Assembly: GCA_017461945.1 (NCBI GenBank)
Contig: JAFTSB010000041.1
Coordinates: forward strand, 1-57,735
DNA from: Clostridia bacterium
GTDB taxonomy: Bacteria > Bacillota > Clostridia > Oscillospirales > CAG-272
Direction of reading: 5' to 3'
Length of the DNA: 57,735 nt
Part shown: one piece after another, positions 4,875 to 22,920 of the stretch
How the letters are laid out: every line of letters starts with the position of its first letter
Numbering within the stretch: the first letter of the stretch is position 1
The notes under the pieces: model-generated
Told to the model about the DNA's origin: nothing
Database searches by the model: none
The model's input: the letters and a program-made list of their open reading frames with translations, nothing else
Program-made: the position numbers and the translations under genes

Positions 4875-5708
4875 ATGGAAAAACACTGGGAAAATATTTA
4901 TGAGATCCATACTCTGGGGGAGGTGCCCGTGATCTTTCATCACGATGTTGCCTGCCACTCCAAACGCGCCAACTGGCACGAAAACATTGAGATCCTGCTA
5001 TTCACCAAGGGAAACGGCGTGGTTGTTTGCGAAGAACAGCGCACCCCCGTTATGGCAGGCGACATTTGCGTTGTTGACTCCAACCTGCTACACCGCGTGG
5101 AAAGCGAGGATACGGTTTTTTATGATTGCTTGATCGTGGATGACGACTTTTGCCAAAAAAATGGCCTTTTCCCCGGTGCGGCATCCTTTCAGCGCTGTAT
5201 CCGATGCCCGGAGCTGACCGATCAATACAACAAAGTTGCGGCGGCCTTTGAATCCAACGCCCCCTATCGTGCGGCAGAAATCCGCGCCGCGGCACTGACC
5301 CTGATGGTCACGCTAATGCGGCGCTTCAGCCGACCTTCGCGCCCTCCCGGCAAGGATAGCAGCTCTGCCATCCGCACGGCCATTGCCTACATCCGTGCGC
5401 ATTTCGCCGACACACTGGACCTGGATCGCCTTGCGGCCGAGGTCAATTTAAGCAAGTATCACTTTATTCGCAAATTCAAGGAGGCCACCGGGCAAACGGT
5501 GGTAGCCTATATCAATGCCGTGCGCATTGAGCAGGCTGAGCGACTGCTGCGAGAAGGAGAGCTTTCTGTGGCGGCGGTGGCCGATGCCTGCGGCTTTGTC
5601 AGCCACTCCTATTTTTCCAAGGTCTTTTATCGCTTGCGAGGCGTTCTGCCCTCGGAGCTGCAAGAAAAAACAAGTATTGACCGCCGCTTGATAAAACCCT
5701 TTTCTTGA
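4875..5708 (+). CDS. AraC family transcriptional regulator with N-terminal cupin domain
   Basis: 277 residues. The N-terminal half looks like a cupin sensor (WHENIEILLFTKGNG, GDICVVDSNLLH), which binds a small ligand in this family. The last ~100 residues form the two-helix-turn-helix AraC domain: LDRLAAEVNLSKYHFIRKFK and VADACGFVSHSYFSKVFYR. It is divergent from the isomerase/dehydrogenase operon and is probably its sugar-responsive regulator. No clear Shine-Dalgarno sequence precedes ATG 4875, so the start is less certain than others here. It ends in front of a shared terminator. Confidence 0.9.
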   Translation: MEKHWENIYEIHTLGEVPVIFHHDVACHSKRANWHENIEILLFTKGNGVVVCEEQRTPVMAGDICVVDSNLLHRVESEDTVFYDCLIVDDDFCQKNGLFPGAASFQRCIRCPELTDQYNKVAAAFESNAPYRAAEIRAAALTLMVTLMRRFSRPSRPPGKDSSSAIRTAIAYIRAHFADTLDLDRLAAEVNLSKYHFIRKFKEATGQTVVAYINAVRIEQAERLLREGELSVAAVADACGFVSHSYFSKVFYRLRGVLPSELQEKTSIDRRLIKPFS

Positions 5709-5786: not shown

Positions 5787-6719
5787 TTATTTCTGCTCTC
5801 GCACGGTTTCGGCCAAAGTGGTGGCCACCCCTGCCAGATTTTGCAGGTCGGAGGGGATGATGATCTTGGTTGCCTTGCCGTCGGCTACCTTGGCCAGCGT
5901 CTCGTAACTCTTAAGTGTCAGTACCTGGGCGCAGGGCGGCACCTCGTTGAGCATACGCAGACCCTCGGCGGTGGCCTGCTGCACCTTCAGAATCGCCTCG
6001 GCTTCGCCTTCTGCCTCGCGAATACGTGCCTCGCGCTGAGCTTCGGCACGCAGGATCGCGGCCTGCTTTTCGGCCTCTGCCTCCAGAATAGCGGACTGCT
6101 TGCGACCCTCGGCCACAAGAATAGCGGAATTCTTCTCACCCTCGGCGCGCAGAATGGCCTCGCGACGCTCACGTTCTGCCTTCATCTGCTTTTCCATGGC
6201 ATCCTGAATTTCGCGGGGCGGAATGATGTTTTTCAGCTCCACGCGATTGACCTTGATGCCCCAAGCATCGGTGGCCTGGTCCAGGATCGAACGCATTTTG
6301 GTATTGATGGTATCGCGAGAGGTCAGCGTGCCGTCCAGATCCAACTCACCGATCATGTTACGAAGGGTGGTGGCCGTCAGGTTTTCAATGGCAAAAATGG
6401 GATTGGTCACACCGTAAGCATACAGCTTGCAGTCGGTGATCTGATAATACACCACCGTGTCGATCTGCATACGTACGTTATCCTTGGTAATGACCGATTG
6501 GGGCGGAAAATCCACCACCTGCTCCATCAGGTTGATCTTTTTGCTCACCTTATCAATAAAGGGGATCTTAACGTGGAGGCCATTGCCCCACGTGGTGTGA
6601 TAGGAGCCAAGACGCTCCATCACATAGGCATGTGCCTGGGGCACAATGTGAATGTTGGCGATCAGAACCACCAAAACAATAATCAAAACCGCCAGAATTG
6701 CAATGACTGCACCAACCAT
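5787..6719 (-). CDS. qmcA: SPFH/Band 7 membrane protein (slipin/QmcA type)
   Basis: 310 residues. One N-terminal membrane helix (residues ~3-22, rich in V/I/L/A) is followed by the Band 7/SPFH domain (HIVPQAHAYVMERLG, then the LKNIIPPREIQDAMEKQMKA stretch). A long alternating Ala/Glu/Arg coiled coil (about 170-245) and a C-terminal hydrophobic stretch follow. SPFH proteins oligomerise into large membrane-attached rings and organise membrane domains or modulate proteases. It lies 31 bases downstream of an NfeD gene, the classic slipin-NfeD pairing, so the two probably work together. The gene symbol is by resemblance only. It is separate from the HflK/HflC-like group at 17.9-21.8 kb. Confidence 0.9.
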   Translation of the reverse strand: MVGAVIAILAVLIIVLVVLIANIHIVPQAHAYVMERLGSYHTTWGNGLHVKIPFIDKVSKKINLMEQVVDFPPQSVITKDNVRMQIDTVVYYQITDCKLYAYGVTNPIFAIENLTATTLRNMIGELDLDGTLTSRDTINTKMRSILDQATDAWGIKVNRVELKNIIPPREIQDAMEKQMKAERERREAILRAEGEKNSAILVAEGRKQSAILEAEAEKQAAILRAEAQREARIREAEGEAEAILKVQQATAEGLRMLNEVPPCAQVLTLKSYETLAKVADGKATKIIIPSDLQNLAGVATTLAETVREQK

Positions 6720-6750: not shown

Positions 6751-7170
6751 TCAGCTTACAATCAGCTTTACACCTTGGATTTCCAGAATCGTGACCTGCT
6801 CACCAACGGCAATGACACGGGTCGGATCCTGCGATCGTGCCGACCAACAAAGGCCGCCCACCTTGACCTCTCCTACCTCATCTATATTACGGATCTCCTC
6901 GGTGACGATACAAACCTTGCCGATCAAGGATTCGGCGTTGGTTTTCACTGCCTTGCCTGCCAAAAGCCGGCGGCAAAGAGGGCGCGTGGCAATGACCAAC
7001 AGCAAGCCCACCACCACAAACAACAGGATCTGCACCCACCACGGCACTTCAAACAGCGACAGCACCAAAGAAACCAATGCCGCTGGAAAAAACCAGATGG
7101 CCACAAGATCACTGGTCACGGCTTCCAGCACCACAGCCAGCACCAAAACCGCGATCCACACATACAGCAT
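6751..7170 (-). CDS. NfeD family membrane protein
   Basis: 139 residues. Several N-terminal membrane helices (LYVWIAVLVLAVVLEAVT, then a long hydrophobic region to about residue 75) are followed by a small C-terminal OB-fold-like domain (IGKVCIVTEE, GEVKVGGLCWSARS, EQVTILEIQGVKLIV), the short NfeD type without the ClpP-like protease domain. The OB domain is thought to contact slipin/SPFH partners. AAAGGAGG precedes the ATG, and the promoter at 7219-7248 drives this gene and the slipin. Confidence 0.9.
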   Translation of the reverse strand: MLYVWIAVLVLAVVLEAVTSDLVAIWFFPAALVSLVLSLFEVPWWVQILLFVVVGLLLVIATRPLCRRLLAGKAVKTNAESLIGKVCIVTEEIRNIDEVGEVKVGGLCWSARSQDPTRVIAVGEQVTILEIQGVKLIVS

Positions 7171-8610: not shown

Positions 8611-8646
8611 AAAAATCGGGTCTGACCAGGTCAGACCCGATTTTTT
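8611..8646 (-). terminator. intrinsic terminator of the P-type ATPase gene
   Basis: AAAAATCGGGTCTGACC / GGTCAGACCCGATTTTT with no spacing in the centre. It lies directly on the stop codon of the minus-strand ATPase and is symmetric enough to work in both directions. Confidence 0.88.
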
Positions 8647-11293
8647 AATACAATCCCTTTTTGCCCCACAGCCGTCTGCCCACCAGATGGAAAAATCCAA
8701 CCGGCAGCACCAGGGCAGCAAGCCCCAGCGTAACGGCCAGCTCTCGTGCCGTCAACGGCACGGTACGCATCACGGCGCCACCCAGATAGACCATTACCAG
8801 CTGCACGGCGCCCACCAGTGTCATGATCAGGCAAAAGGCGCGGTTGCGCCCAAGCCCCTCCAGCATCCGCGCCCGATCGGTACGGGCATTGAAGCAGTTG
8901 AACACCCCGGCAAAGATAAACAACGCAAAAAAGGCTGTCAGCAAGCAAAGATCCCCTTCGCTTGCCCGATACAAGCCGCGCACCCATTCCGATTTCAAAA
9001 AGAACACCGACAGCCCCACGGTAAACAGGGTCAACACCGTGATCCGCCCCACTAACGCGCGCGTCAAAATGGGTTCATCCCGTTTTTTGGGCGATTCCTT
9101 CATATAATAAGCCAAGGGGGCCTCTCCGGCAAAGGCCAGGCCGCCAAGGGTATCCATGATCATATTGATCCAAAGCATCTGCACCACGGTGACAGGGGCC
9201 TCGAAGCCAATAAAGGGGCCGATCATGGAAACGCCCACGGCACAGAAGTTCATCACCAGCTGCAGCGTGATAAATTTTCGGATACTTTTAAACACCGTGC
9301 GACCGTAGAGCACCGCGCGGCAAATAGAGGCCAAATTATCGTCCAGGATCACGACATCCCCGGCCTCCTTGGCCACCTGCGTACCGCTGCCCATGGCAAA
9401 GCCCACATCGGCCAGCTTTAAGGCGGGTGCATCGTTGATACCATCCCCCGTCATACCCACCACAAGCCCCAGCTCCTCGGACAGCCTCACCAAGCGGCTT
9501 TTATCGGTGGGCAACGCACGGGCAATGACCGCAAGGCGTGGGAGTAAGGCTTTGACAGCCTCATCGGAAAGGGCGGCCAGCTCATCGCCGGTCAATACCA
9601 CGCCGTGATGCCCCAGAATACCGCAGGCGGTCGCGATGCCGGCGGCGGTCTCTCTTCCGTCTCCCGTAATCATCACCACCTGCACTCCGGCCCCCTGCAA
9701 TGTACGCACGGCGACCTTGGCCTCGGGGCGAACGGGATCCGTAAAGGCGATGGCCGCAAGAAGGGTCAGCCGCTCGCCGATGCGTTCCCCGGGCATCTGC
9801 CCCGAGGGGCACTCGCATAGCAAAAGCAAGCGCTCCCCTGCCTGCATACGGCTTTTGACCCGAGCCAAAAAGCCGTTTTTGGAGAAGGTGCGAACGGCAC
9901 CGTCACCCCCGAAAGCATCCTGCAAATGGGGTGCCAGCCGTTCAGGGGCTCCCGTAACCAGTACGCGGCCATCGGCAAGTGCGCTGGCGGCAAATTTGCG
10001 CGCGCTATCAAAGGGCTGACGTGCTACGATCTCAAAGGCAGGTGCATCATAGTCCAGAAAGGCAGTCAATAGGGCCCGATCGGTGGCGTTGCCACCAAGA
10101 GCAGCCGCCGCACCGTCGCGCTGGCCACGCACCGCCCCCGAATTGCCATAGACCGCCACCGCCAAGCGCGAGAACAGCTCCGGCGCGATGCGTGACAGCT
10201 CTTGCACAGACGAAAAATCGGCCTCGGCCGTTAAAATACCCGAAAGGGTCAGCTTGCCTGCGGTCAAGGTGCCGGTCTTATCGGTGAACAGCACGTTCAT
10301 ACTGCCGGCCGCCTCGATGCCGGCCGGCTTGCGTACCAACACGTGATCCCGTACCATGCGGCGGATATTGGAGGAAAGCACCACGGCGATCATCATCGGC
10401 AACCCCTCGGGCACGGCCACCACCACCACGGTCAGCGCCAGCGTTAATGCGTGGAGCAGCGTATCGGCCATATACGAAAAATCACGCAGACGTATCAGCA
10501 TTTCTGCGCGGTCAAAGCCGGCATCCAGCACCAAGGCATGAAAAAGAAATGCCAAAGCACAGATCGCCGCCGCCACATAACCCACCACGCTGATCTGCCG
10601 TGCCAGGCGTGTAAGCCGATGCTTCAGAGGGCTTTCGCGAGTGTCGCCCTGTAGCTCGCCCGAAATGCCCCCCAGCACGGTGTGATCCCCCACTGCGCAA
10701 ACGCGCATCACCGCCTCGCCGGATAGCACCGTGCAGCCTGCCAGTACCGCCCCGGGGGCATTGGGGGTCACGCCCTCTCCACGTCTCCAGGGGCGTTTTT
10801 CCATCTCGCGGCTCTCGCCGGTCAAGGTCGATTGATCCACCGTCAGCTGCCCTGAAAGCAGGATACCGTCGGCAGGGATACGCTCGCCTGCGCCAAGCAA
10901 TACGATATCGCCCACCACCACCTCGGTGGCATCGATCTCCCGAATCTGCACACGCCGTACCCGACAGCGATCTGCGCCACAGCTCTCGTTTAATTTGACA
11001 AAGGCGTTCTCACTCCCATATTCCGATAGCGTGGAGATCAACGTAGCCAGCAGAACGGAAACGGCAATGCCCACCGTTTCCAGCCAATCGGCATTGCGAA
11101 ACAGCAGCACAAGATGTATGGCCAACGCCAGTAGCAGCACCTTGATCACCGGGTCACCCAGATTGGAAAGAAAAACGCGCCATATCCGTTTTCTACCTAC
11201 AGTGCCCAGCACATTGGCACCGTGCCGCCTTCTGGATTCCTCTACCTCGCTCTCCTCCAGACCGCGCGGTAGCTCCTTTATGGGGTCTTTCAT
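8645..11293 (-). CDS. P2-type (Ca2+-like) cation-transporting P-type ATPase
   Basis: 882 residues. Start 11293 (MKDPIKE) follows AAAGGAGG; the longer frame lacks a site. In order: N-terminal cation-ATPase domain (ESRRRHGANVLG), actuator loop with LTGES, M4 with PEGLPM, the phosphorylation motif DKTGTLTAG, a nucleotide-binding domain, hinge MTGDGINDAPALK, and C-terminal membrane helices. The M6 motif LWINMIMDTLGGLA and a later FNCFNART-like stretch resemble plasma-membrane-type Ca2+ pumps (PMCA/P2B-like). It would export Ca2+ or a similar divalent cation using ATP. It stands alone between a terminator and the divergent ABC exporter. Confidence 0.93.
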   Translation of the reverse strand: MKDPIKELPRGLEESEVEESRRRHGANVLGTVGRKRIWRVFLSNLGDPVIKVLLLALAIHLVLLFRNADWLETVGIAVSVLLATLISTLSEYGSENAFVKLNESCGADRCRVRRVQIREIDATEVVVGDIVLLGAGERIPADGILLSGQLTVDQSTLTGESREMEKRPWRRGEGVTPNAPGAVLAGCTVLSGEAVMRVCAVGDHTVLGGISGELQGDTRESPLKHRLTRLARQISVVGYVAAAICALAFLFHALVLDAGFDRAEMLIRLRDFSYMADTLLHALTLALTVVVVAVPEGLPMMIAVVLSSNIRRMVRDHVLVRKPAGIEAAGSMNVLFTDKTGTLTAGKLTLSGILTAEADFSSVQELSRIAPELFSRLAVAVYGNSGAVRGQRDGAAAALGGNATDRALLTAFLDYDAPAFEIVARQPFDSARKFAASALADGRVLVTGAPERLAPHLQDAFGGDGAVRTFSKNGFLARVKSRMQAGERLLLLCECPSGQMPGERIGERLTLLAAIAFTDPVRPEAKVAVRTLQGAGVQVVMITGDGRETAAGIATACGILGHHGVVLTGDELAALSDEAVKALLPRLAVIARALPTDKSRLVRLSEELGLVVGMTGDGINDAPALKLADVGFAMGSGTQVAKEAGDVVILDDNLASICRAVLYGRTVFKSIRKFITLQLVMNFCAVGVSMIGPFIGFEAPVTVVQMLWINMIMDTLGGLAFAGEAPLAYYMKESPKKRDEPILTRALVGRITVLTLFTVGLSVFFLKSEWVRGLYRASEGDLCLLTAFFALFIFAGVFNCFNARTDRARMLEGLGRNRAFCLIMTLVGAVQLVMVYLGGAVMRTVPLTARELAVTLGLAALVLPVGFFHLVGRRLWGKKGLY

Positions 11294-11372
11294 GGGAACG
11301 CCTCCTTTGCCGGATATTCCCTTCATCTTATGCGGCAAGAGAGAAAAAAAGACCAAAATATGCCACACGGTA

Positions 11373-13933: not shown

Positions 13934-14500
13934 TTACTTTGAAAAGATCAATTCAGCGAGTTGTTTATATTGCACTGCATATTGATTGTCAGCAGAATAA
14001 ATTATCATTGTATCATCAGAAACGCTACTTTCAAATTGAATACAAAAAACCGATGCTTTTCCTGTCACTAAAGTATAATATGATTCATCGGACTCCACAC
14101 ATTCATTGAGAAAAAGTACATATTTTTCTTCGCTATTAAAACATTCTAATATGCCATCTTGGTTGATCACGGTTATATCTCCCATTGTTCCCCCCAAAAC
14201 TCTAACTGCAATCTGCCGATCACTCTCCAAAGAAGTGAATACATAATCCGTGGTAACAATTTCCCCTCCCGTGTCATTTGTGGTCAATTTGGAAGGCATA
14301 ATTTTCGACAACTTGCAACATTCTATGGCATCTGCTTCTTCTGCTAGTTCAGTTAAAGAATAATTTGGGTACATATGCCCTACAGATACTACAGTCTCAC
14401 TTTCTAATAGTAGTGGGAATATTATAACAGAAACGACAATGGCCATACTGCAAGAAAATATGATCCAAAGTATTGCAGATTTCTTGCTATATTTTTTCAT
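13934..14500 (-). CDS. membrane-anchored exported protein of unknown function, matrixin cassette
   Basis: 188 residues with one N-terminal membrane helix (about 9-30) and an extracytoplasmic remainder. The order of motifs (LAEEADAIECCKLSKI, then VRVLGGTMGDITVI, then EEKYVLFLNE and YYTLVTGKAS) matches a broad class of secreted bacterial proteins of unknown function whose pattern is 'AD-x-hydrophobic-GxV ... V.V.GG..G ... E.YVLFL'. The first gene of the same cassette (15143-15832) has the same order of motifs. I suspect a small beta-barrel, perhaps OB/TIMP-like, but cannot show it. It is third in a tight operon, 16 bases after the metalloprotease. Base composition is markedly AT-rich. Confidence 0.7.
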   Translation of the reverse strand: MKKYSKKSAILWIIFSCSMAIVVSVIIFPLLLESETVVSVGHMYPNYSLTELAEEADAIECCKLSKIMPSKLTTNDTGGEIVTTDYVFTSLESDRQIAVRVLGGTMGDITVINQDGILECFNSEEKYVLFLNECVESDESYYTLVTGKASVFCIQFESSVSDDTMIIYSADNQYAVQYKQLAELIFSK

Positions 14501-14516
14501 TTTGGTGTCTCCTTTC

Positions 14517-15146
14517 TTAATATAGATTAACTATACCCAACCGATCGTCTTCGGATAACTTTCGCACGACAGAACCAGATGGCAAAGCGCTATACATTAC
14601 AATATCTTGGAATGTGCCATCGGGTAGTGCATAACTATATTCATCGGTATGATCGAGGCCCAAGACATGACCCAATTCATGAAGCACCACAGACTCAAAA
14701 TCATATTGAATACTTCTAATATCGCTTTCGCTCTCCCCAGTGTACCACGTTTTAGAAGCATTTATATTCATATCAAATTCTTCCAAATACCAATTCAACC
14801 ATAAGAATGTGTATTTTTTATTCACATAATATGTGTATCCTAAATATGATTCACTAGAGTTGAGAAAAGTAATCGTATTCGTATCGTCTTCAACTGGGGA
14901 ACTAGAAATATTTGTCCTGCCTGCATATACCAAATGATCATAAGCAAAGCAAGTAGTATTCCATGTGCTCATAGCATCTTGAGTGCGTGCTAATTGATCA
15001 TCCGTTAAGGTTGTTGATATATAAATTTGACTAGGAATTGTTTGTAACCCTTTATGTGTGTAGGCATATGCGCCAATAGAAAGGCATAACATTAACGAAA
15101 GCGAAAATGAAAAAACACATAGGCAAACTATCTTTTTGAAACTCAT
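14517..15146 (-). CDS. secreted matrixin-like (M10 family) zinc metalloprotease
   Basis: 209 residues. An N-terminal signal peptide (IVCLCVFSFSLSLMLCLSIG, ending near AYA) is followed by a compact catalytic domain. The zinc motif is HELGHVLGLDHTDE (HExxHxxGxxH plus the third-ligand neighbourhood), about residues 155-168. A downstream Met-turn candidate is VMYSALPSG. This fits peptidase family M10A (matrixin) with no propeptide Cys-switch visible. The start overlaps the stop of the upstream lipoprotein gene by 4 bases (ATGA), suggesting translational coupling. Target unknown. Confidence 0.85.
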   Translation of the reverse strand: MSFKKIVCLCVFSFSLSLMLCLSIGAYAYTHKGLQTIPSQIYISTTLTDDQLARTQDAMSTWNTTCFAYDHLVYAGRTNISSSPVEDDTNTITFLNSSESYLGYTYYVNKKYTFLWLNWYLEEFDMNINASKTWYTGESESDIRSIQYDFESVVLHELGHVLGLDHTDEYSYALPDGTFQDIVMYSALPSGSVVRKLSEDDRLGIVNLY

Positions 15147-15832
15147 TTGTATTCCTCCAATTCATTTTGTGAAATCATTTTTTCGGTATATTCTATTACG
15201 CTTTCCCAATCATAAGAGGTTAATGAAGAATATGCCGATTTGGAAGTACGACATTCAGCATTCTTGCCGCTTTCTTTGATAAATCCAAACCGATCATCAT
15301 CAGCAAACATAGCTTGACAAAGCTCGGCAACATTCCAAGTGCAGTTATTTTCCTCATAGTAGGTATCTACCGCCACAGCCTCGGCCATAAAGATGCCGTA
15401 GTCCCCTTTTTTCAAGCCATCCAACAGGTCGGCACCTGAGCGGTTACCGCCTACGGGGCCTGCCATCACCGTGATATCGGTAGTATCATAATTCCCTTTT
15501 AAAAATTGATCCACCGACATTTTGATCAAGGATTTATAAAGCTTAACACCATTACAATCAATTTCTATATTCTGTATACGCGTGATCTTACCCGAAAATA
15601 TATAATCTGCCGCAGAAAAAAGCTCCTCCTCTGTGGCAAACGGCAAGCAAGCGGATCCGTGATCAGAGCGTTGTTTGCCCACGACTTTGATTGACACATT
15701 ACCCGTATAATCCGAGATTGCAATGTTGGAGCTGCAAGAATTACCAAGAACCGCCAAGACAATCAATAACAAACATAAAATTAGCTTTGGCAGCGCTCTC
15801 CATTTATTAGAAAGCTTAACTTGGAAATACAT
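15143..15832 (-). CDS. lipoprotein of unknown function, first gene of matrixin cassette
   Basis: 229 residues from ATG 15832, chosen because GGGGTGAGG lies just upstream (a TTG further out is less likely). The signal peptide ends in the lipobox LGNSC. The mature part has EELFSAADYIFSGKITRIQ, VDQFLKGNYDTTDITVMAGP and KGDYGIFMAEA: the 'AD-x-IF-GKI ... V..FLKG ... I.V..G ... G.Y.IF' order also seen in the third gene of the cassette. This resembles exported proteins in the database that carry no known function. It overlaps the protease gene (ATGA). AT-rich composition sets it apart from both neighbours. Confidence 0.75.
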   Translation of the reverse strand: MYFQVKLSNKWRALPKLILCLLLIVLAVLGNSCSSNIAISDYTGNVSIKVVGKQRSDHGSACLPFATEEELFSAADYIFSGKITRIQNIEIDCNGVKLYKSLIKMSVDQFLKGNYDTTDITVMAGPVGGNRSGADLLDGLKKGDYGIFMAEAVAVDTYYEENNCTWNVAELCQAMFADDDRFGFIKESGKNAECRTSKSAYSSLTSYDWESVIEYTEKMISQNELEEYK

Positions 15833-15851
15833 AGGCCTCACCCCCAATTTT

Positions 15852-15880
15852 ATTGTACAATATTAACATCCAGTTGTCAA
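15852..15880 (-). promoter_or_regulatory. sigma-A promoter of the matrixin cassette
   Basis: Minus strand: TTGACA (15880-15875), 17-base spacer, TACAAT (15857-15852), only ~20 bases before the start codon at 15832. Near-consensus. Confidence 0.85.
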
Positions 15881-15928
15881 TATTTTCTGTAAATATTGTT
15901 AATTGATATCAAAAGATTCATAATATTG

Positions 15929-15964
15929 AAAAGCCCGATACGTTCTTGGCACGCATCGGGCTTT
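15929..15964 (-). terminator. intrinsic terminator of the SPFH/P1B-ATPase operon
   Basis: AAAGCCCGAT / ATCGGGCTTT, with inner CGT/ACG pairing and T residues on the minus-strand side. It lies directly past the ATPase stop codon. Confidence 0.82.
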
Positions 15965-15968
15965 GGTT

Positions 15969-17891
15969 TTAATACTTCTGCTCGCCGCGCAGGATGCGGG
16001 AGCTGTTGATCAGAACGGCAAAGGCGCCCACATTGTGCAGGATCGAGCCCGCCAGCGAGCTGATCACGCCAAAGGCAGACAGAGCGATCATCACCACGCT
16101 GATGCCAATGGACAGGGCCAGGTTCTGATAGATGGTGCGGCGGGTCTTTTTGGCCAGCTCCACCACAAAGGGAATGTTCATCAAATTGTTATTCATCAAG
16201 GCGATATCGGCCGATTCGATGGCCAGATCCGATCCCATGGCACCCATGGCGATGCCCACGTCCGCCTCGCGCAGAGCCAACGCATCGTTGATGCCGTCAC
16301 CAACGGCCAGCACGGCGTGCTCGTCATCGGAAAGCTCGCGCAGACGGTCCAGCTTATCCTGAGGCAACAAACGGGCATATACCTGATCCACGCCAACCTT
16401 TTCGGCAATGAGCTTGGCAGGCTCTTCGCGGTCACCGGTCAGGATCACGGTGCGCTCAGCACCAAGCTCACGCAAGGCCTCCACGCTCCGCGCCGCATCC
16501 TCGCGGACGGTATCGTTAAAGCACAGGCAGCCAAGCAGGGTCTGATCCACGGCAACATAGCTGATGCTGCCCATGACATCGGTGGCGAAATCGGTGGGAA
16601 CGGCGCATCCATTTTGCTCCAGCCATTCCCGGCGGCCAAAGCGCACCACGCGCCCGTCAGGAGCGGTTCCCTCCACACCGCCACCGGAAACCTCGCGGAT
16701 CTCCAGATCCTTTTGGTATTCCAATCCGTTGGTCAACGCATATGCGACGGCAGCACGGGAAACAGGGTGAGTAGAAGCAATCGCCACAGAGGTAGCCGCG
16801 GCGATCAAGGCCTCAGGGGCGGTATCGCCAAAGGGAATGACATCGGTGAGCCCCAACTCACCCTTGGTCACGGTACCGGTCTTATCAAAGACCACGGTGT
16901 CGATCTCGGTCAGCTCCTCAATGAACTTAGAGTTTTTGATCAGCACACCGCGCTTGGTGGCCACCGACAAAGCGGCGATCATCGGGGCAGAGCTGACCAG
17001 CATCTGACCGCAGGGGCAAGAAACCACCAACACGGCAATGGCTTGCGCCACGTCGCGGGAGATCAGCGCCACCACGGCGGCAACGCCCAGCACAAAGGGA
17101 ATGTAATAGCCCAAAAAACGATCCAGAATACGAGATTCGGGAGCGGAGATGTTTTCGGAATTTTCCAGCAGCTGCAAAATTTTAGAGAAGGAGGTATCGA
17201 TGTATTCCTTTCGAACCTCCACCACAATGCGGCCATCCAGGTTGACGGTACCGGCATAAACGTCCTCGCCCACCTCAACGTGTGCGGGCTGGGGCTCGCC
17301 GGTCAGGGACTTCTGATCCACGTGCGTATTGCCCGCGATGACCACACCGTCCACCGGAATGCCCGATCCGGGCTTGATGACGATCTGCTGTCCCACCTTC
17401 AGCGTCTTGGCATCTACCACCTGCTCCTCGCCGTCTACCAACAGCACGGCGGTGCTTTGCTGCATCCGCTTCAAGCCGTCGATGACATCGCGGCCACCCA
17501 TAATGCTACGCTCCTCCAGAATGTGTGCCACATTCAAAATCAGAGGGATCAGCAGCGCCAGGATCAGCTCCTGATTGAATACGCAGGCAATGATGGCAAT
17601 GCCCACCAGAATCTCCATGGCGTTGGTGAGATTTTTGGTAAAGATCCCCTTTACGCCGGTGATGATCACGGGAATGCCCTCAATGAGAAAGCCAATGAAA
17701 TACAGCAGCTGGGGGACGATGGGATAGGCGTTGCCCAACACATAGGTGTAGATCAGGCCCACCGCCAGGCACGCCAGCGTAGCAGCGCCGCAAATGATAT
17801 CCTTGGTCAGCTTGCGGCGGCCGGCATTGGTAAGATTGTCACGGGAAAGGGCTTGCAGGGAGCTTTGCCCCATGTTATTGATATTTTCCAT
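15969..17891 (-). CDS. P1B-type heavy-metal-transporting ATPase without HMA domain
   Basis: 640 residues. Motifs in order: actuator LTGEPQP (TGE), the intramembrane VSCPCGQMLVSSAP (CPC), phosphorylation DKTGTVTKGE, the P1B-specific STHPVS (HP motif), hinge VGDGINDALAL, and two last helices with LHNVGAFAVLINSSRIL. These identify a P1B transition-metal pump. There is no N-terminal metal-binding HMA domain, and the final helix has H-N-V-G where Zn/Cd pumps of the ZntA type usually have an Asp, so metal choice is open. It is the last gene of a four-gene operon (gaps 14, 8, 11) behind three SPFH proteins, an unusual setting. Confidence 0.92.
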   Translation of the reverse strand: MENINNMGQSSLQALSRDNLTNAGRRKLTKDIICGAATLACLAVGLIYTYVLGNAYPIVPQLLYFIGFLIEGIPVIITGVKGIFTKNLTNAMEILVGIAIIACVFNQELILALLIPLILNVAHILEERSIMGGRDVIDGLKRMQQSTAVLLVDGEEQVVDAKTLKVGQQIVIKPGSGIPVDGVVIAGNTHVDQKSLTGEPQPAHVEVGEDVYAGTVNLDGRIVVEVRKEYIDTSFSKILQLLENSENISAPESRILDRFLGYYIPFVLGVAAVVALISRDVAQAIAVLVVSCPCGQMLVSSAPMIAALSVATKRGVLIKNSKFIEELTEIDTVVFDKTGTVTKGELGLTDVIPFGDTAPEALIAAATSVAIASTHPVSRAAVAYALTNGLEYQKDLEIREVSGGGVEGTAPDGRVVRFGRREWLEQNGCAVPTDFATDVMGSISYVAVDQTLLGCLCFNDTVREDAARSVEALRELGAERTVILTGDREEPAKLIAEKVGVDQVYARLLPQDKLDRLRELSDDEHAVLAVGDGINDALALREADVGIAMGAMGSDLAIESADIALMNNNLMNIPFVVELAKKTRRTIYQNLALSIGISVVMIALSAFGVISSLAGSILHNVGAFAVLINSSRILRGEQKY

Positions 17892-17902
17892 AGTGCCCTC
17901 CC

Positions 17903-18847
17903 TTACGGATCCAGAAAGATCTTGGTCTCGCCGTCCTGCACCACGCGCACGGTACCGATCTTGGCAATGGCCTGTGCAAACTTATCGGCATAGATACGGG
18001 TACGCACCACATCGGGATTTTGCTGGAATTCGGCCAGCACGCCCCAGAACTCGGCCAGATCGCTGTTGGCGGCACCAATGGCCAGCGATTGCTGACTTCT
18101 GGCAGCACCCACGGTGGTATTGGCAATGGACTGTGCCTCGGGCAACAGATTTTCACGGTACTGATACGCGCGCTCGACGATGGTCTCGGCCTGCACGTTA
18201 GCGGCGTTAACGGCCTCATAGGCATCCCGCACCTCCTCGGGCATTGCCACCTGCGTCAGCTCCAGCGAGGTAATGGTGACCCCTGCGCCGATTTGATCCA
18301 GCTTTCCGGCGGCAAAGGCCATCACAGCCTTGGAAAAATCATCCTTGCCGTCGGTCAGCAGCTCATCCACATCCATGTGGCAAGCCTCGTTGACCATGGC
18401 AGAGCTGACCGTTGCATGGATCAGCTGGGAGACATCTGCCACGTGCGTGGCATACAGGACCGGATCGGAAACCATATATTTCACAGAGGCCGCAACCACG
18501 GCAATATTTTGGTCTCCCGTAATCAGATAGCCACCGTTGGTGGCGGAAATGGCACCCTCGCCGGTAAAATGGGTGGTTACACTCTGCTCGATCACCTTTT
18601 CCGAGGGGATGGTCACCACCTCGTCAATAAAATACGGAAAGGCAAACAAGAGACCCGGCTCGTGCACCTGATCCTCGTAAGAATCCCCCACCAGCTTGCC
18701 AAAGCGCAGCACCAAGGCCACGTTTCCGCTTTCCACAACGCGGATGCCGGAAAGAAGGATAAACAGCACGACGACAACAACCAAAATGAGGAAATATTTG
18801 GTTACCGTTTCAAGGACGTCGGCAAATAGTGTCTTCTGCTTTTTCAT
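17903..18847 (-). CDS. HflK-like SPFH/Band 7 membrane protein
   Basis: 314 residues: one N-terminal membrane helix (about 19-36), then the SPFH domain opening with VVESGNVALVLRFGKLVGD and GLLFAFPYFIDEVVTIP. The coiled-coil region includes LELTQVAMPEEVRDAYEAV and a C-terminal ERAYQYRENLLPEAQSIANT ... LAEFQQNPDVVRTRIY stretch, which follows the HflK rather than HflC pattern. In bacteria HflK and HflC build a large cage around the FtsH protease. No FtsH is nearby; the neighbour is a P1B ATPase 11 bases downstream. Confidence 0.85.
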   Translation of the reverse strand: MKKQKTLFADVLETVTKYFLILVVVVVLFILLSGIRVVESGNVALVLRFGKLVGDSYEDQVHEPGLLFAFPYFIDEVVTIPSEKVIEQSVTTHFTGEGAISATNGGYLITGDQNIAVVAASVKYMVSDPVLYATHVADVSQLIHATVSSAMVNEACHMDVDELLTDGKDDFSKAVMAFAAGKLDQIGAGVTITSLELTQVAMPEEVRDAYEAVNAANVQAETIVERAYQYRENLLPEAQSIANTTVGAARSQQSLAIGAANSDLAEFWGVLAEFQQNPDVVRTRIYADKFAQAIAKIGTVRVVQDGETKIFLDP

Positions 18848-18855
18848 AAGCGATC

Positions 18856-19995
18856 TTACGGGGTGGGCTCCTCGGTCACGATGCCGTTGTCAGCAGCGGC
18901 CTCGTTGATCAAAGCAGCAATGGCATTGATCAGGGCGGTGCGATCCTCGGGGGCCAGATCGGGGTGGGAGAGAATGTAGTTCAGATCGTTGATCACGGTC
19001 TGATTGCCGTTTTCATCGGTCATATACTTGGAATACTCGGTCAGAATGCTGAAGGGATACTCATCGGCCTTGACCACCAGCACTGTCTTGTTGTTAACAG
19101 AAGCCACCACCGTATCCAGATTTTTGAGGAACTGATACAGCTCGATATTGGCAGCCTGGGCATCGGCGTAGATCTTGGCCACAGCGGTTTCGGTCTCGGC
19201 CTTGATCTTGGCCGCCTCGGTGGTGCCCTGCCCTGTGATCTCGGCAGCCTCGGAATCGGCCTCGGTATTGATCTCGTTGGCCTTGAGGTAAGCGTTGGCA
19301 ATGATGATATCAATATCCTTTTGGCGATCTACGCGCATCTGCTCGAACACGGCATCCAGATTGGCATCGGGCAAGGAAAGGCGCAGGATGCTGACATCCA
19401 CCACATGGATGCCGTAATTGGCAAGGCAGTTGTCGTGTACACGGGTGTAGATCTCCTGCTGGATCTGATCGATTTTGATCTGCTCCTTTTCCAGAGAAAC
19501 CAGTGCCGTCAGCTCGTAAGAGCCCATGGTACTGTTGGTGGCGCTGAACACCTGATCGTTGATGTAGCTATTGACCGACCCGTTAGCACCCACGCTGTTG
19601 TGGAACAGCACGGGGTCGCTGATCTCCCAAGCCACGTAGGACTGGATAATGATATTACGCTTATCTTTTGTGGTGGTCTCCAGGCGGTTGGCCTCCAGGT
19701 ACTGCAATCTGTTGTCATAGGAGACAACGCTCTCAAAGGGCCAAGGAAGCTTGAAGTACAGTCCCGCGTCGGTGATCTCCTCACGGACAGCGCCAAAGCG
19801 CAGGATCACGGCGCAGTTGCCCTCCTTCACCACCGTGGTGAAGCCAAACCAAAACAGCACCAGCACCACAACAAGTGCCGTGGCGTATTTGGCAATGCGC
19901 ACGCCCAAGGCAGAGCGCACCTTGGGGGCACCTGCTCCCTTCTCCGGGGCAGAGCCGTTTTGGATCTGCTCCATCTCGTTTATCTTTTTACTCAT
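18856..19995 (-). CDS. HflC-like SPFH/Band 7 membrane protein
   Basis: 379 residues. A short cytoplasmic N-terminus, one membrane helix (about 36-55), then the SPFH domain (VVKEGNCAVILRFGAVREE, AGLYFKLPWPFESVVSYDNR). The coiled coil (RQKDIDIIIANAYLKANEIN, EAAKIKAETETAVAKIYADA) and the final IELYQFLKNLDTVVASVNNK ... VVKADEYPFSIL region match HflC. An acidic extension of about 70 residues at the C-terminus (from about 310) is longer than usual for HflC. It sits between the two HflK-like genes and probably forms hetero-oligomers with them. Confidence 0.87.
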   Translation of the reverse strand: MSKKINEMEQIQNGSAPEKGAGAPKVRSALGVRIAKYATALVVVLVLFWFGFTTVVKEGNCAVILRFGAVREEITDAGLYFKLPWPFESVVSYDNRLQYLEANRLETTTKDKRNIIIQSYVAWEISDPVLFHNSVGANGSVNSYINDQVFSATNSTMGSYELTALVSLEKEQIKIDQIQQEIYTRVHDNCLANYGIHVVDVSILRLSLPDANLDAVFEQMRVDRQKDIDIIIANAYLKANEINTEADSEAAEITGQGTTEAAKIKAETETAVAKIYADAQAANIELYQFLKNLDTVVASVNNKTVLVVKADEYPFSILTEYSKYMTDENGNQTVINDLNYILSHPDLAPEDRTALINAIAALINEAAADNGIVTEEPTP

Positions 19996-20009
19996 AATTT
20001 CGTCCTCCG

Positions 20010-21827
20010 TTAATTGGATCCGGTAATGCTGCCAATGTAGATGTTGGAAGCATCAATTCCGTCACCCACGATCACCACACGACCGTTGGCGTATGCCGCG
20101 GTAATGGCCTGCAGGTATTTGTAATAGCGGTATTCGTCACGATAAGCCTGATCGGCCTCCACACTGGCCATAAACTCGGCCACGGCACCGGTGGCCGTTG
20201 CAATGCTTTCCAACCGTTTTACATTGGCCGCACCCACCATGGTCAGCGCAGCGCTTTGCGCGTCGGCCAGCTTGACTGCCGCCACGCCCTCGGCATCCAG
20301 CACGATCTGCTGGGCTTGGATCTCGGCGCTGATCAGCTCCTGATAAACGGCAGCCACGTCAACGGGGGGATGGATGCTTTCCAGCACCACGCTGACCACG
20401 GCAAGACCGGTCTGATGCTCGTTCATCCGCGCGATCAGCTCGGTTTTAAACTCCTCGGCAAACACCGCACGGTCGGTGGCCAGCAGCGTGGCAAGATCGG
20501 TGCTGATGGTTCTGGCCGTAACGGTTTCATAGGCTGCCGCCTGCAGCAAAAGCTCAGGGGCGGCCGTATTTTTCAAATAGGCGTGCAGATCGTCGATGCG
20601 ATAGGAAACGCGCAGGTTGATGGAGACCAGCTCCTTGCCGCCGCCCAGCAGCAGCTTGTATTCCTCACTACCGTGGGATTCGGTCCAGATATTGTCGGTG
20701 CTTTCATCGGACAAATACCCCACCGTTACGTTGCTGACCACCTGCGTATCATAGACCTCAACGGTATCGAAGGGCCAGGGCAGAGTCATATGTAAGCCGG
20801 GCTGTAGCGCTTCATCCTGCAAGCGCCCCAAGCGGTAGTGGGCCCCCTGCTGATAGGGCTCGATCTTGACCATACCGCTAAAGCCCCACAGCAGCAGCAC
20901 CACACCCATGAGGGTATAGGGCAGAATGGTTTTGATCAATCGGATGCTCCAAAGAGAGCGCATCGTAATACCCGTATTTTTTTCCAGGTAAGAAAGAACA
21001 CCAAGGTCCTCACCGCCAAGCCCCGGCATGGGGATCGACAGCTCGGGGGCGGTATTCATCTCGTGACGGATCACACGCACCGCCAGCGAGATCACCAAAA
21101 ACAGCGTTTCATAAGCGAACAGCACCGCCATGATCACCGTGGCCACCTTGCAAAGATCGGCAAAGCCCATCAGCTTGATCATCATCACAACGGCGATCAC
21201 ACCCTGTGCCAGACGTCCTGCGGTCAGGGCGCCGCGCAGGCTGTGCAGAATGGCCTGATGATACACGTCGGCGGCGTTTTTCTCCTCGTGTTCGGCGCGT
21301 TCCTCGCTCAAATTCTGACGGTCGCTGTCACCGGCGTGCTTACACCATTTTTCCAGCACGATGAACAGCACAAAGGCGGCCACCAGAAAAACGGGAATGT
21401 GATATCCCAAGGCATATGCTCTTACGGTGGTGCGGGCCATCAGCCAGAAATAAACGTTGGCACCGATGATCAGCAGCAAGGTCAGCGTGACCAGAATACC
21501 ACCGCGATGCTGATGCCACAGAGCTTTTATGCCCGTCAAGATGCGATGGGGCAGCTCCTTCACTGCACGCTTGAGCCTACCCTTTTGGGGGAGCTCCTCC
21601 GTTTCCGTTACAGGAGCGGCAGGGGGAACGGCGTGCCCAAGTGGGATCAGTAGCAGTAAATTGATCACCGCCGGCAGCAGTAGCACGATGGCACCCAGCA
21701 GCAGGGGCAGATAGGCGGTGGTGAAATACAGCACCCCTGCCCCCACAGCCGCCAGCATCAGGATCGCCGCCGTGGTGATGGCGGCCACCCGTGACGGTGC
21801 CGTAGGCTTTTTCTTTGTTTGTTTCAT
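20010..21827 (-). CDS. polytopic membrane protein fused to an HflK-like SPFH domain
   Basis: 605 residues from ATG 21827 (AGAGGAG upstream). The first ~330 residues contain about six or seven membrane segments (for example LLLGAIVLLLPAVINLLLLI, VFLVAAFVLFIVLE, ATVIMAVLFAYETLFLVI, LPYTLMGVVLLLWGF), which is not the usual single anchor. After MVKIEPYQQGAHYRLGRLQD begins an SPFH domain with LQPGLHMTLPWPFDTVEVYD, and the C-terminus ends like HflK (DEYRYYKYLQAITAAYANGR). It is first in the SPFH/P1B operon. The N-terminal membrane region may recruit or cap the assembly; its family is unknown to me. Confidence 0.85.
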   Translation of the reverse strand: MKQTKKKPTAPSRVAAITTAAILMLAAVGAGVLYFTTAYLPLLLGAIVLLLPAVINLLLLIPLGHAVPPAAPVTETEELPQKGRLKRAVKELPHRILTGIKALWHQHRGGILVTLTLLLIIGANVYFWLMARTTVRAYALGYHIPVFLVAAFVLFIVLEKWCKHAGDSDRQNLSEERAEHEEKNAADVYHQAILHSLRGALTAGRLAQGVIAVVMMIKLMGFADLCKVATVIMAVLFAYETLFLVISLAVRVIRHEMNTAPELSIPMPGLGGEDLGVLSYLEKNTGITMRSLWSIRLIKTILPYTLMGVVLLLWGFSGMVKIEPYQQGAHYRLGRLQDEALQPGLHMTLPWPFDTVEVYDTQVVSNVTVGYLSDESTDNIWTESHGSEEYKLLLGGGKELVSINLRVSYRIDDLHAYLKNTAAPELLLQAAAYETVTARTISTDLATLLATDRAVFAEEFKTELIARMNEHQTGLAVVSVVLESIHPPVDVAAVYQELISAEIQAQQIVLDAEGVAAVKLADAQSAALTMVGAANVKRLESIATATGAVAEFMASVEADQAYRDEYRYYKYLQAITAAYANGRVVIVGDGIDASNIYIGSITGSN

Positions 21828-21899: not shown

Positions 21900-21928
21900 A
21901 TATTATCATATTTATACGCGCTTGTCAA
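21900..21928 (-). promoter_or_regulatory. sigma-A promoter of the SPFH/P1B operon
   Basis: Minus strand: TTGACA (21928-21923), 17-base spacer, TAATAT (21905-21900). The leader to 21827 holds a GC-only hairpin, GCGCGC-CCCG-GCGCGC (21860-21875), just before the ribosome binding site. Confidence 0.88.
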
Positions 21929-22008: not shown

Positions 22009-22920
22009 TTACTTTTGGTACAGCTCCTTGTGATACACGCCGGTGGCATACAGCTCTTCAAAGGCGGCCACCACGGCCTCTTTATCCTCCCGATAGGTCA
22101 CGCCAAACCACTTATCGCCGGTTTTCAGCACCCGCACCGTGGCACTTCCCTTTTGCACCATACCGTCGATAACGGCAGGGAGCAAATATTCGGCCTTGAT
22201 GTCGCCGGGCTGCAATCCGCCAAGAAATGCGGCAAAGCCGGTCTCCAGCTCATCCAGGAATTCGGGGGTAAGGGCCCACATATTCATCGAAACGATGGAA
22301 TCGGGATCAATAGGGGTACGAACGCCGTCCTTTTCCACGGCAGCGCCCTCGCCGTCACGCACCAGACCGTGGGTCTCGGTTACGCCGGTCAGATAGCCCT
22401 CGGCGCTCACACGGCAGATGCCACGGGAAACACCGCCGTTTTCGCTCAAGGTATTTTTTAAAATAAAGCCGGGCATGCAGAAGCTACCCTTTTTGCCTGC
22501 GTTTTCCACCAAAAAGTCGTGGGCGAGACGGAAGCCCTCCTTGCCATAGTAGTCATCGGCATTGATGACCAAAAAGGGCTCGTTTACAATACCGCGGCAG
22601 GAAAGCACAGCCTGGCCGGTTCCCCAAGGCTTTTTGCGATCGGCCGGGCAGGTGAAGCCTTCGGGCAGATCGTCCTTTTCTTGAAACGCATAAGCGATGG
22701 GGCAGATCTTTTCGATGCGTTCGCCAATGATCTCGCGAAAATCCTTTTCCAGATCCCGGCGGATGATAAACACAACACGGTCAAAGCCGGCCTCTAATGC
22801 ATCGTGAATGGAATAATCCATAATAATCTCGCCGTTGGGGCCCACGGGCTCCAGCTGCTTGATGCCGCCCCCAAAGCGCGAGCCAATGCCCGCCGCCATA
22901 ATGACAAGACTGGTCTTCAT
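22009..22920 (-). CDS. sugar-phosphate nucleotidyltransferase
   Basis: 303 residues of the NTP_transferase fold. The N-terminal signature is VIMAAGIGSRFGGGIKQLEP (nucleotide-binding G-rich loop, with Lys after it), the metal-binding Asp pair is in FLVINADDYYG, and later motifs include NGGVSRGIC and VSMNMWAL. This activates a sugar-1-phosphate to an NDP-sugar, with UTP:glucose-1-phosphate as one option. The exact sugar is not shown. It is a single-gene unit with its own promoter (22959-22987) and terminator. AAAAGGAG precedes the ATG. Confidence 0.85.
   Translation of the reverse strand: MKTSLVIMAAGIGSRFGGGIKQLEPVGPNGEIIMDYSIHDALEAGFDRVVFIIRRDLEKDFREIIGERIEKICPIAYAFQEKDDLPEGFTCPADRKKPWGTGQAVLSCRGIVNEPFLVINADDYYGKEGFRLAHDFLVENAGKKGSFCMPGFILKNTLSENGGVSRGICRVSAEGYLTGVTETHGLVRDGEGAAVEKDGVRTPIDPDSIVSMNMWALTPEFLDELETGFAAFLGGLQPGDIKAEYLLPAVIDGMVQKGSATVRVLKTGDKWFGVTYREDKEAVVAAFEELYATGVYHKELYQK

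Follow-up and report, generated by a model that had tools for sequence, protein, structure and literature searches.

Organisation of the four-gene operon

The 57,735-nt contig JAFTSB010000041.1 of a gut Clostridia bacterium (assembly GCA_017461945.1; Oscillospirales, CAG-272), the whole of which is hereafter called the window, contains a reverse-strand operon in which genes for three SPFH proteins, SPFH1, SPFH2 and SPFH3, are followed by a gene for a P1B metal ATPase (Table 1). The four genes are separated by 14, 8 and 11 bases. A sequence-only reading of the window had proposed a four-gene operon with these gaps, and the open reading frame (ORF) coordinates match exactly. The gaps leave no space for an NfeD gene, and the operon is not an NfeD-SPFH pair. 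The same reading had described a near-consensus promoter, and such a site is present upstream of SPFH1, with TTGACA and TAATAT 17 bases apart, TG before the second hexamer, and 10 of 12 consensus bases. The site is weak on its own, as 16 such sites occur in the window compared with 10.3 (standard deviation (sd) 2.8) in shuffled sequences; boxes resembling TTGACA and TATAAT, judged by eye, recur upstream of the quartet in many relatives. Directly after the pump gene lies a 14-bp hairpin followed by a T-rich stretch, with a folding energy of −23.5 kcal/mol over 50 bases. A terminator pattern scan of the window (11 sites, loop limit 8) did not include this hairpin. Because the hairpin and the T-rich tail stand just after the pump gene, the transcription unit looks complete at four genes.

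Table 1. Features of the operon and of the CDF-HflK fusion genes used for comparison
Feature	Coordinates	Strand	Length (aa)	Description
SPFH1	20010..21827	−	605	HflK-derived; extra N-terminal multi-spanning membrane domain (residues ~1–320)
SPFH2	18856..19995	−	379	HflC-like; single N-terminal membrane segment
SPFH3	17903..18847	−	314	Second HflK-like protein; single N-terminal membrane segment
P1B metal ATPase	15969..17891	−	640	Cassette-specific lineage; without N-terminal HMA domain
Sigma-70-like promoter of the operon	21900..21928	−		Pattern scan; similar boxes upstream in many relatives (by eye)
Likely terminator	15930..15964	−		Hairpin and T-rich tail; RNAfold
CDF-HflK fusion gene, G085	L071:8699-10231	−		PF01545 and Band_7
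CDF-HflK fusion gene, Aquibium	L204:553-2100	+		PF01545 and Band_7

Lineages of the SPFH proteins and the pump

All three SPFH proteins match Pfam Band_7, with E-values of 6.7e-12 for SPFH1 (residues 321–513), 2.3e-24 for SPFH2 and 2.5e-23 for SPFH3. The best NCBIfam models are HflK for SPFH1 and SPFH3, and HflC for SPFH2. Specifically, SPFH2 scores 135.8 bits with the HflC model TIGR01932, just over the cut-off of 134.4, and its Paraburkholderia counterpart scores 111.1 bits, under that cut-off; SPFH1 (89.1 bits) and SPFH3 (137.7 bits) both miss the cut-off of the HflK model TIGR01933 (159.4). A quick tree, supported by the Shimodaira–Hasegawa-like approximate likelihood-ratio test (SH-aLRT) only and carrying a long-branch warning where SPFH1 meets SPFH3, places SPFH1 and SPFH3 on the side of HflK, and SPFH2 on that of HflC. 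Models and trees thus agree with the two HflK-like proteins and one HflC-like protein named in the sequence-only reading. In a wider quick tree, SPFH1 and SPFH3 are each placed with their own cross-phylum partner, and the trio forms lineages separate from canonical HflK and HflC.

The hydrophobic segment lies at residues 38–56 in SPFH2 and 20–38 in SPFH3. By a simple hydropathy cut-off, SPFH1 has five such segments ahead of its SPFH domain, and six relatives have six to nine. This N-terminal region is kept within Clostridia; with the Pseudomonadota counterpart it gives a weak profile match (probability 74%, E 2.7e-5) part of which falls in the stretch that borders the SPFH domain. With at most three candidates scored per genome, SPFH1 found matches in 20 of 398 sampled genomes of the phylum, at full length in the window's own genome only and over the SPFH part in the other 19. 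A separate SPFH gene is present about 9 kb from the quartet (5787-6719, reverse strand; Band_7, 141 bits), adjoined by an ORF that is NfeD-like by reading (6751-7170, reverse strand).

The fourth protein matches Pfam E1-E2_ATPase and Hydrolase, with no HMA match, and scores 498.5 bits with TIGR01525 (cut-off 346.25). It contains an SCPCG motif at residues 291–295 and the pair H619-N620 in its last membrane helix. The CPC, DKTGT and HP motifs are invariant among 18 aligned sequences, as in P1B metal ATPases, and CPC is retained across the pumps of the related quartets, or cassettes, described below. The signature of P1B-2 pumps (ZntA/CadA) combines CPC with a Lys and an Asp in the last two helices. 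Both residues are present in the aligned ZntA, whereas the window pump has S598 at the Lys position and, depending on which of two disagreeing alignments is used, H619 or N620 at the Asp position. Four cassette pumps have Glu or Asp at the acidic position of ZntA and Ser or Thr at the Lys position. A P1B-2 identity was rejected on these differences and on the position of the pump outside the ZntA/ZiaA clade, even though the cadmium-family model TIGR01512 gives 432.9 bits, over its cut-off of 313.5. A P1B-1 (CopA) identity was likewise rejected, as the pump scores 347.2 bits with the copper model TIGR01511, under the cut-off of 397, and lies outside the CopA clade.

The last-helix His-Asn pair is found in 16 of 16 cassette pumps and, outside the cassettes, in one pump of the PacL type and in one paralogue from Clostridia. 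H123, E127, S129 and G132 likewise occur in all 16, each being present in at most 2 of 20 other pumps. In a quick tree of 37 rows, including nine clostridial and seven plasmid cassette sequences and supported by SH-aLRT only, the cassette pumps of two phyla form one clade (98) apart from CopA, ZntA/ZiaA and the PacL-type pump. Each of four cassette genomes (G000, G117, G178 and G205) encodes three P1B ATPases at E 1e-60, one CopA-like, one ZntA-like and the cassette pump, and G235, a genome of the same genus without the cassette, encodes only the CopA-like and ZntA-like ones. Since both ordinary pumps are also present in all four cassette genomes checked, the cassette pump is an addition to them, and it belongs to a lineage distinct from the usual exporters of copper and zinc that these genomes encode. 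In Clostridia, one P1B that is not part of an observed cassette (L188; G085:C10:536402-538036) has the same last-helix His-Asn and is a weak sister (76) of the cassette pumps. The window also holds a large P-type ATPase ORF (8645-11368, reverse strand, 907 aa), calcium-type by reading and not by family search.

Recurrence of the quartet in two phyla

The four genes are a conserved unit, and in quick trees all of the encoded proteins but SPFH2 cluster with their counterparts from a second phylum. A scan of contigs, with one genome per species, found 38 loci that match the pump. All 35 clostridial loci that include the upstream DNA have the order SPFH1-SPFH2-SPFH3-P1B on one strand; of the remaining three, L029 is cut, with SPFH3 and the pump visible, L031 is cut inside the pump, and L038, whose pump is distant (29%), has nothing that matches SPFH within its 7.6 kb. 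In the family survey, cassette-type HflC (454–618 bits, next best 172) and cassette-type P1B (942–1148 bits) occur in the same 9 of 118 genomes, with SPFH3 in the interval of about 1 kb that separates them, and all four genes were confirmed in the eight besides the window's own. In the order survey of 147 genomes, the two occur in the same two genomes. At most eight pump candidates per genome were scored in the order survey and ten in the family survey, so that a pump could be missed, and the samples overlap, six of the nine family genomes being loci L008, L014, L015, L032, L034 and L036 of the 38-locus scan. Presence is patchy, as the cassette-free G235 illustrates.

The quartet also occurs on plasmids of Paraburkholderia, Burkholderia, Rhizobium and Klebsiella aerogenes, with a gene order identical to that of the window. 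Among five plasmid records examined first, two (Paraburkholderia sprentiae and Rhizobium tumorigenes) contain the exact quartet, one (Aquibium) contains an HflK-HflC-HflK (K-C-K) trio followed, after one intervening gene, by a P1B, and two contain an ordinary HflKC pair. The Paraburkholderia HflC matches 28 plasmid records, of which the ten with at least 59.7% identity were examined further, together with Aquibium. All four genes are present in seven of these ten (the query record and six by tblastn); in the other three, HflK, HflC and pump matches stand together, the comparison having covered those three genes. Between the window and Paraburkholderia, identity is 33.3% over 583 aa for the pump, 29.5% over 298 aa for the HflC-like protein and 26.9% over 353 aa for SPFH1. 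In the quick trees, cross-phylum grouping has SH-aLRT support of 93 for SPFH1, 97 for SPFH3 and 98 for the pump. The HflC-like sets of both phyla lie outside the canonical HflC clade (98), and the tree leaves the order between the two sets unsettled. The plasmid pumps carry ACPCAL in 7 of 7 quartets, whereas clostridial cassette pumps carry SCPCG(Q/H). In Paraburkholderia, the quartet has the permease gene of a metal ABC transporter upstream of it, and the stretch from HflC to pump of Klebsiella has no DNA-level match among 5,426 E. coli genomes. The association of pump and SPFH genes is therefore not confined to the window's genome, the case in which the sequence-only reading would have given up a dedicated complex; its survey of co-occurrence, once carried out, shows the adjacency in all 35 clostridial loci and in a second phylum.

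The gene trees track one another. Pairwise distances among the four genes correlate with r of 0.80–0.94, compared with 0.63–0.78 against FtsH, and partial correlations given FtsH are 0.64–0.87 (29 genomes in each case). FtsH is encoded on another contig of the same genome (C66, 807.7 bits). The sequence-only reading was right that it is absent from the operon, and wrong to let the pump take its place: no ftsH match was found in any of 20 HflKC loci inspected (11–17 kb each), and ftsH is not annotated in the 6.5 kb around E. coli hflKC. Because ftsH is normally unlinked from hflKC, its absence is no sign of replacement by a pump, and that candidate was rejected. The trio could instead be an HflKC-type adaptor for the FtsH encoded elsewhere in the genome, controlling degradation of the co-encoded pump. 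The HflK/HflC ancestry of the trio would suit this role, FtsH is present in 36 of 37 cassette genomes searched, the unlinked E. coli hflKC makes action in trans normal, and mgtA, which encodes a P-type ATPase, is named as an FtsH substrate. However, the comparison with canonical HflK/HflC that the sequence-only reading had recommended sets the trio lineages apart, with trees that follow the pump better than FtsH, and two genomes, G117 and G219, have the cassette plus a separate canonical-type HflC. We consider the adaptor role quite unlikely.

Across the 38 sources (the window and L001–L037), the most widely shared families are those of the quartet, and the next are leucine-rich repeat (LRR) genes, in 16 of 38. 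These facts also bear on whether the SPFH proteins and the pump are simply co-transcribed for one stress without forming a joint machine. Contact between them is a proposal, which leaves room for such a regulon, but the order is fixed and the spacing tight in two phyla, no other neighbour occurs in more than 16 of the 38 loci, the gene trees are matched, and a transporter is fused to an SPFH protein in the cation-efflux (CDF) class described below. Co-transcription without a joint machine thus appears very unlikely.

LRR genes lie directly upstream of SPFH1 in 16 of 35 clostridial loci, two in 15 loci and one in a single locus. The gene nearer SPFH1 stands at −11 to +32 bases, in some cases overlapping it (for example, L016:3160-5180 and L034:905-3257). 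A loose lipobox pattern fits 26 of 31 LRR frames as read, and Pfam assigns the six of these 31 that were searched to BspA-type LRR_5. In the window, the upstream ORF (22009-22920) is not LRR and is sugar-nucleotide-transferase-like by reading. No LRR gene is found among the listed features beside four annotated plasmid copies (L170, L174, L175 and L176), the PLSDB tables being incomplete. Just downstream of the quartet, the G+C content falls to 0.38 in positions 14001-16000, compared with 0.53 and 0.58 in the neighbouring 2-kb bins, and a short ORF inside this bin (14517-15146, reverse strand) contains HELGHVLGLDH and is metalloprotease-like by reading.

Possible role of the quartet and comparison with known systems

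The sequence-only reading knew of no characterised system with this composition. A partly characterised counterpart exists in Pseudomonas aeruginosa, where PA2439 (HflK family), PA2438 (HflC), PA2437 (HflC family), PA2435 (HmtA) and PA2434 form one locus (PMC4542158); the statement thus holds in part only. Among the matches listed in a literature search with subscription journals mostly outside its reach, no title or abstract presents trio and pump as one system. The PA2439-PA2434 locus is up 5.6–14.4-fold in a znuA mutant (PMC4542158), the PA2435 and PA2437–PA2439 proteins are higher on zinc depletion, not all significantly (PMC11761036), and Zur shifts the PA2439 promoter (PMC8531726). HmtA is described as a Zn/Cu importer (PMC8456098), and both this review and a 2022 review (PMC10393844) rely on Lewinson 2009 for HmtA. 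Metal-stress sensing had been among the roles suggested from the sequence; the PA2439-PA2435 precedent points at least as much to uptake under starvation. In strain PA14, three SPFH genes, PaFlo5-7, are reported to form an operon, in a paper that does not contain the word ATPase (PMC13086221), and we infer that this is the same trio as the PA2439-PA2437 type. The word is also absent from a study that used sequence and operon context to divide the SPFH proteins of prokaryotes into 12 subfamilies (PMC2636767).

We propose, as a reading that we hold to have about an even chance of being correct, that the product of the operon is a metal transporter of the HmtA-locus kind, scaffolded by SPFH proteins. 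In E. coli, the SPFH domains of HflK/C form a cage outside the cytoplasmic membrane. By analogy, the HflK-, HflC- and HflK-derived proteins of the quartet probably form one hetero-oligomeric ring or cage on the membrane's outer face, and the extra N-terminal membrane domain of SPFH1 probably docks this ring to the co-encoded P1B ATPase. This domain is placed facing the pump because the CDF class has a transporter domain at the same place. Such a ring would hold the pump stable or in clusters, and would shape the small space at the pump's outer mouth. By analogy with HmtA, the pump would carry a transition metal, with Zn or Cu the most likely, and would probably take it up under scarcity; import is favoured because of the regulation of the Pseudomonas locus and because the pump is additional to the usual pumps. 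The comparisons partly support a dedicated SPFH-pump unit.

The same scaffolded module might work as an exporter, with the SPFH ring clustering a Zn/Cd/Cu efflux pump in the manner of PacL-CtpC. Most P1B ATPases export (PMC8456098), the window pump exceeds the cut-off of the cadmium-family model, PacL-CtpC platforms are a demonstrated case of a scaffold with a P1B, the PacL-type pump of Pseudonocardia has the same His-Asn pair in its last helix, and a cation-efflux domain is fused in the second trio. However, likely exporters, CopA-like and ZntA-like, are already present in all four cassette genomes checked, and the Pseudomonas counterpart is induced by zinc depletion. We judge export to be unlikely.

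Several points weigh against a scaffolded, HmtA-type importer. The evidence on the window operon consists of genes and sequence comparison, and its putative HmtA-type membership would follow from gene order and published annotation. SPFH3 matches across phyla at 30% over 80 aa only (BLAST 7.9e-7), no better than SPFH3 matches SPFH1. Among the 40 matches listed by a plasmid search with the window pump, capped at 5000 records, plasmid cassette pumps score 299–335 bits, compared with 324 for a ZiaA and 303 for CadA; because BLAST scores do not separate the cassette pumps, it is the tree, the signature and the gene order that carry the cross-phylum link. Part of the gene-tree agreement is expected from linkage alone. 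In P. aeruginosa, the level of hmtA mRNA is low and excess zinc does not repress it, a pattern ascribed to a mainly copper role (PMC8531726). The 2022 review calls HmtA import unconfirmed and names hmtA as the sole zinc-uptake promoter unbound by Zur, contradicting PMC8531726 (PMC10393844). If PaFlo5-7 is indeed this trio, its deletion in PA14 has small effects under the ordinary conditions examined, with biofilm about 20% lower and attenuation in Galleria (PMC13086221). Furthermore, no clear Zur- or Fur-like box is found in 36 quartet upstream regions by motif matching: the mean best match, compared with single-base shuffles, is 11.08 against 10.89 (sd 0.15) for Zur and 8.83 against 8.49 (0.15), about two sd above, for Fur, and the Pseudomonas-type Zur motif gives 6.83 against 6.67 (0.11) in shuffles.

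More broadly, we tentatively suggest that SPFH rings may serve as transport compartments, in which old, horizontally spread HflK/C-derived rings surround a dedicated HmtA-type P1B or a fused CDF, metal is passed through a fenced space on the outer face, and some Clostridia add LRR lipoproteins. If so, we know of no earlier example of an SPFH cage that has a metal pump for its built-in client. SPFH rings occur in all domains of life and few have a defined client, and the quartet offers a small, testable client system. Three ring proteins tied to one pump would explain the response of HflK/HflC-like genes to zinc depletion in P. aeruginosa, and SPFH partners may be the missing component for HmtA, a reported P1B importer whose direction has been called unconfirmed (PMC10393844).

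Compared with known systems, the quartet is closest in gene content to PA2439-PA2435 of P. aeruginosa, with three Hfl-type proteins and then a P-type ATPase in the same order. The Pseudomonas locus has PA2436 and PA2434 as additional genes, and Zur is reported at its promoter (contradicted in PMC10393844), whereas the window operon has no clear Zur box. With the HflK/HflC pair, the trio shares ancestry and, in SPFH2 and SPFH3, the single N-terminal membrane segment; the quartet differs in having three such genes, a large extra membrane domain in SPFH1, separate lineages and a pump in the operon. In mycobacterial PacL-CtpC efflux platforms, a scaffold encoded alongside the P1B ATPase gathers it into clusters in the membrane, as proposed for the quartet, but PacL1 is a DUF1490-family membrane protein, not called SPFH, and flotillin is dispensable there. 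No DUF1490 gene adjoins the window P1B, the gaps of 11 bases before and 121 after being too small, and none is among the four proteins (smaller ORFs further off were not scanned). On a Pseudonocardia plasmid, DUF1490 (PacL-family) and P1B genes (L203:2387-4923) adjoin a gene for a zinc ABC substrate-binding protein.

A second trio provides a further comparison. In the clostridial genome G085 (L071) and in Aquibium (L204), a Cation_efflux domain (PF01545; E-values 1.2e-25 and 4.5e-25, respectively) is fused to Band_7 in the first SPFH protein, and HflC and then HflK genes follow, giving a K-C-K trio in two phyla. The two copies pair gene by gene with SH-aLRT support of 99, 97 and 92. The fusion was rejected as a common feature: both domains are spanned in one of 81 genomes of the family and one of 20 of the genus (G085 in each case), in none of 38 matches from 398 genomes of the phylum, and, at 80% coverage, in 1 of 59 matching plasmid records (Aquibium itself). 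In this trio the leading SPFH protein itself carries the transporter, as a fused CDF domain, and the SPFH branches group with canonical HflK/HflC. Both it and the quartet are nonetheless K-C-K SPFH trios linked to a metal transporter, and the fusion is an independent structural hint that such rings may handle metal transporters.

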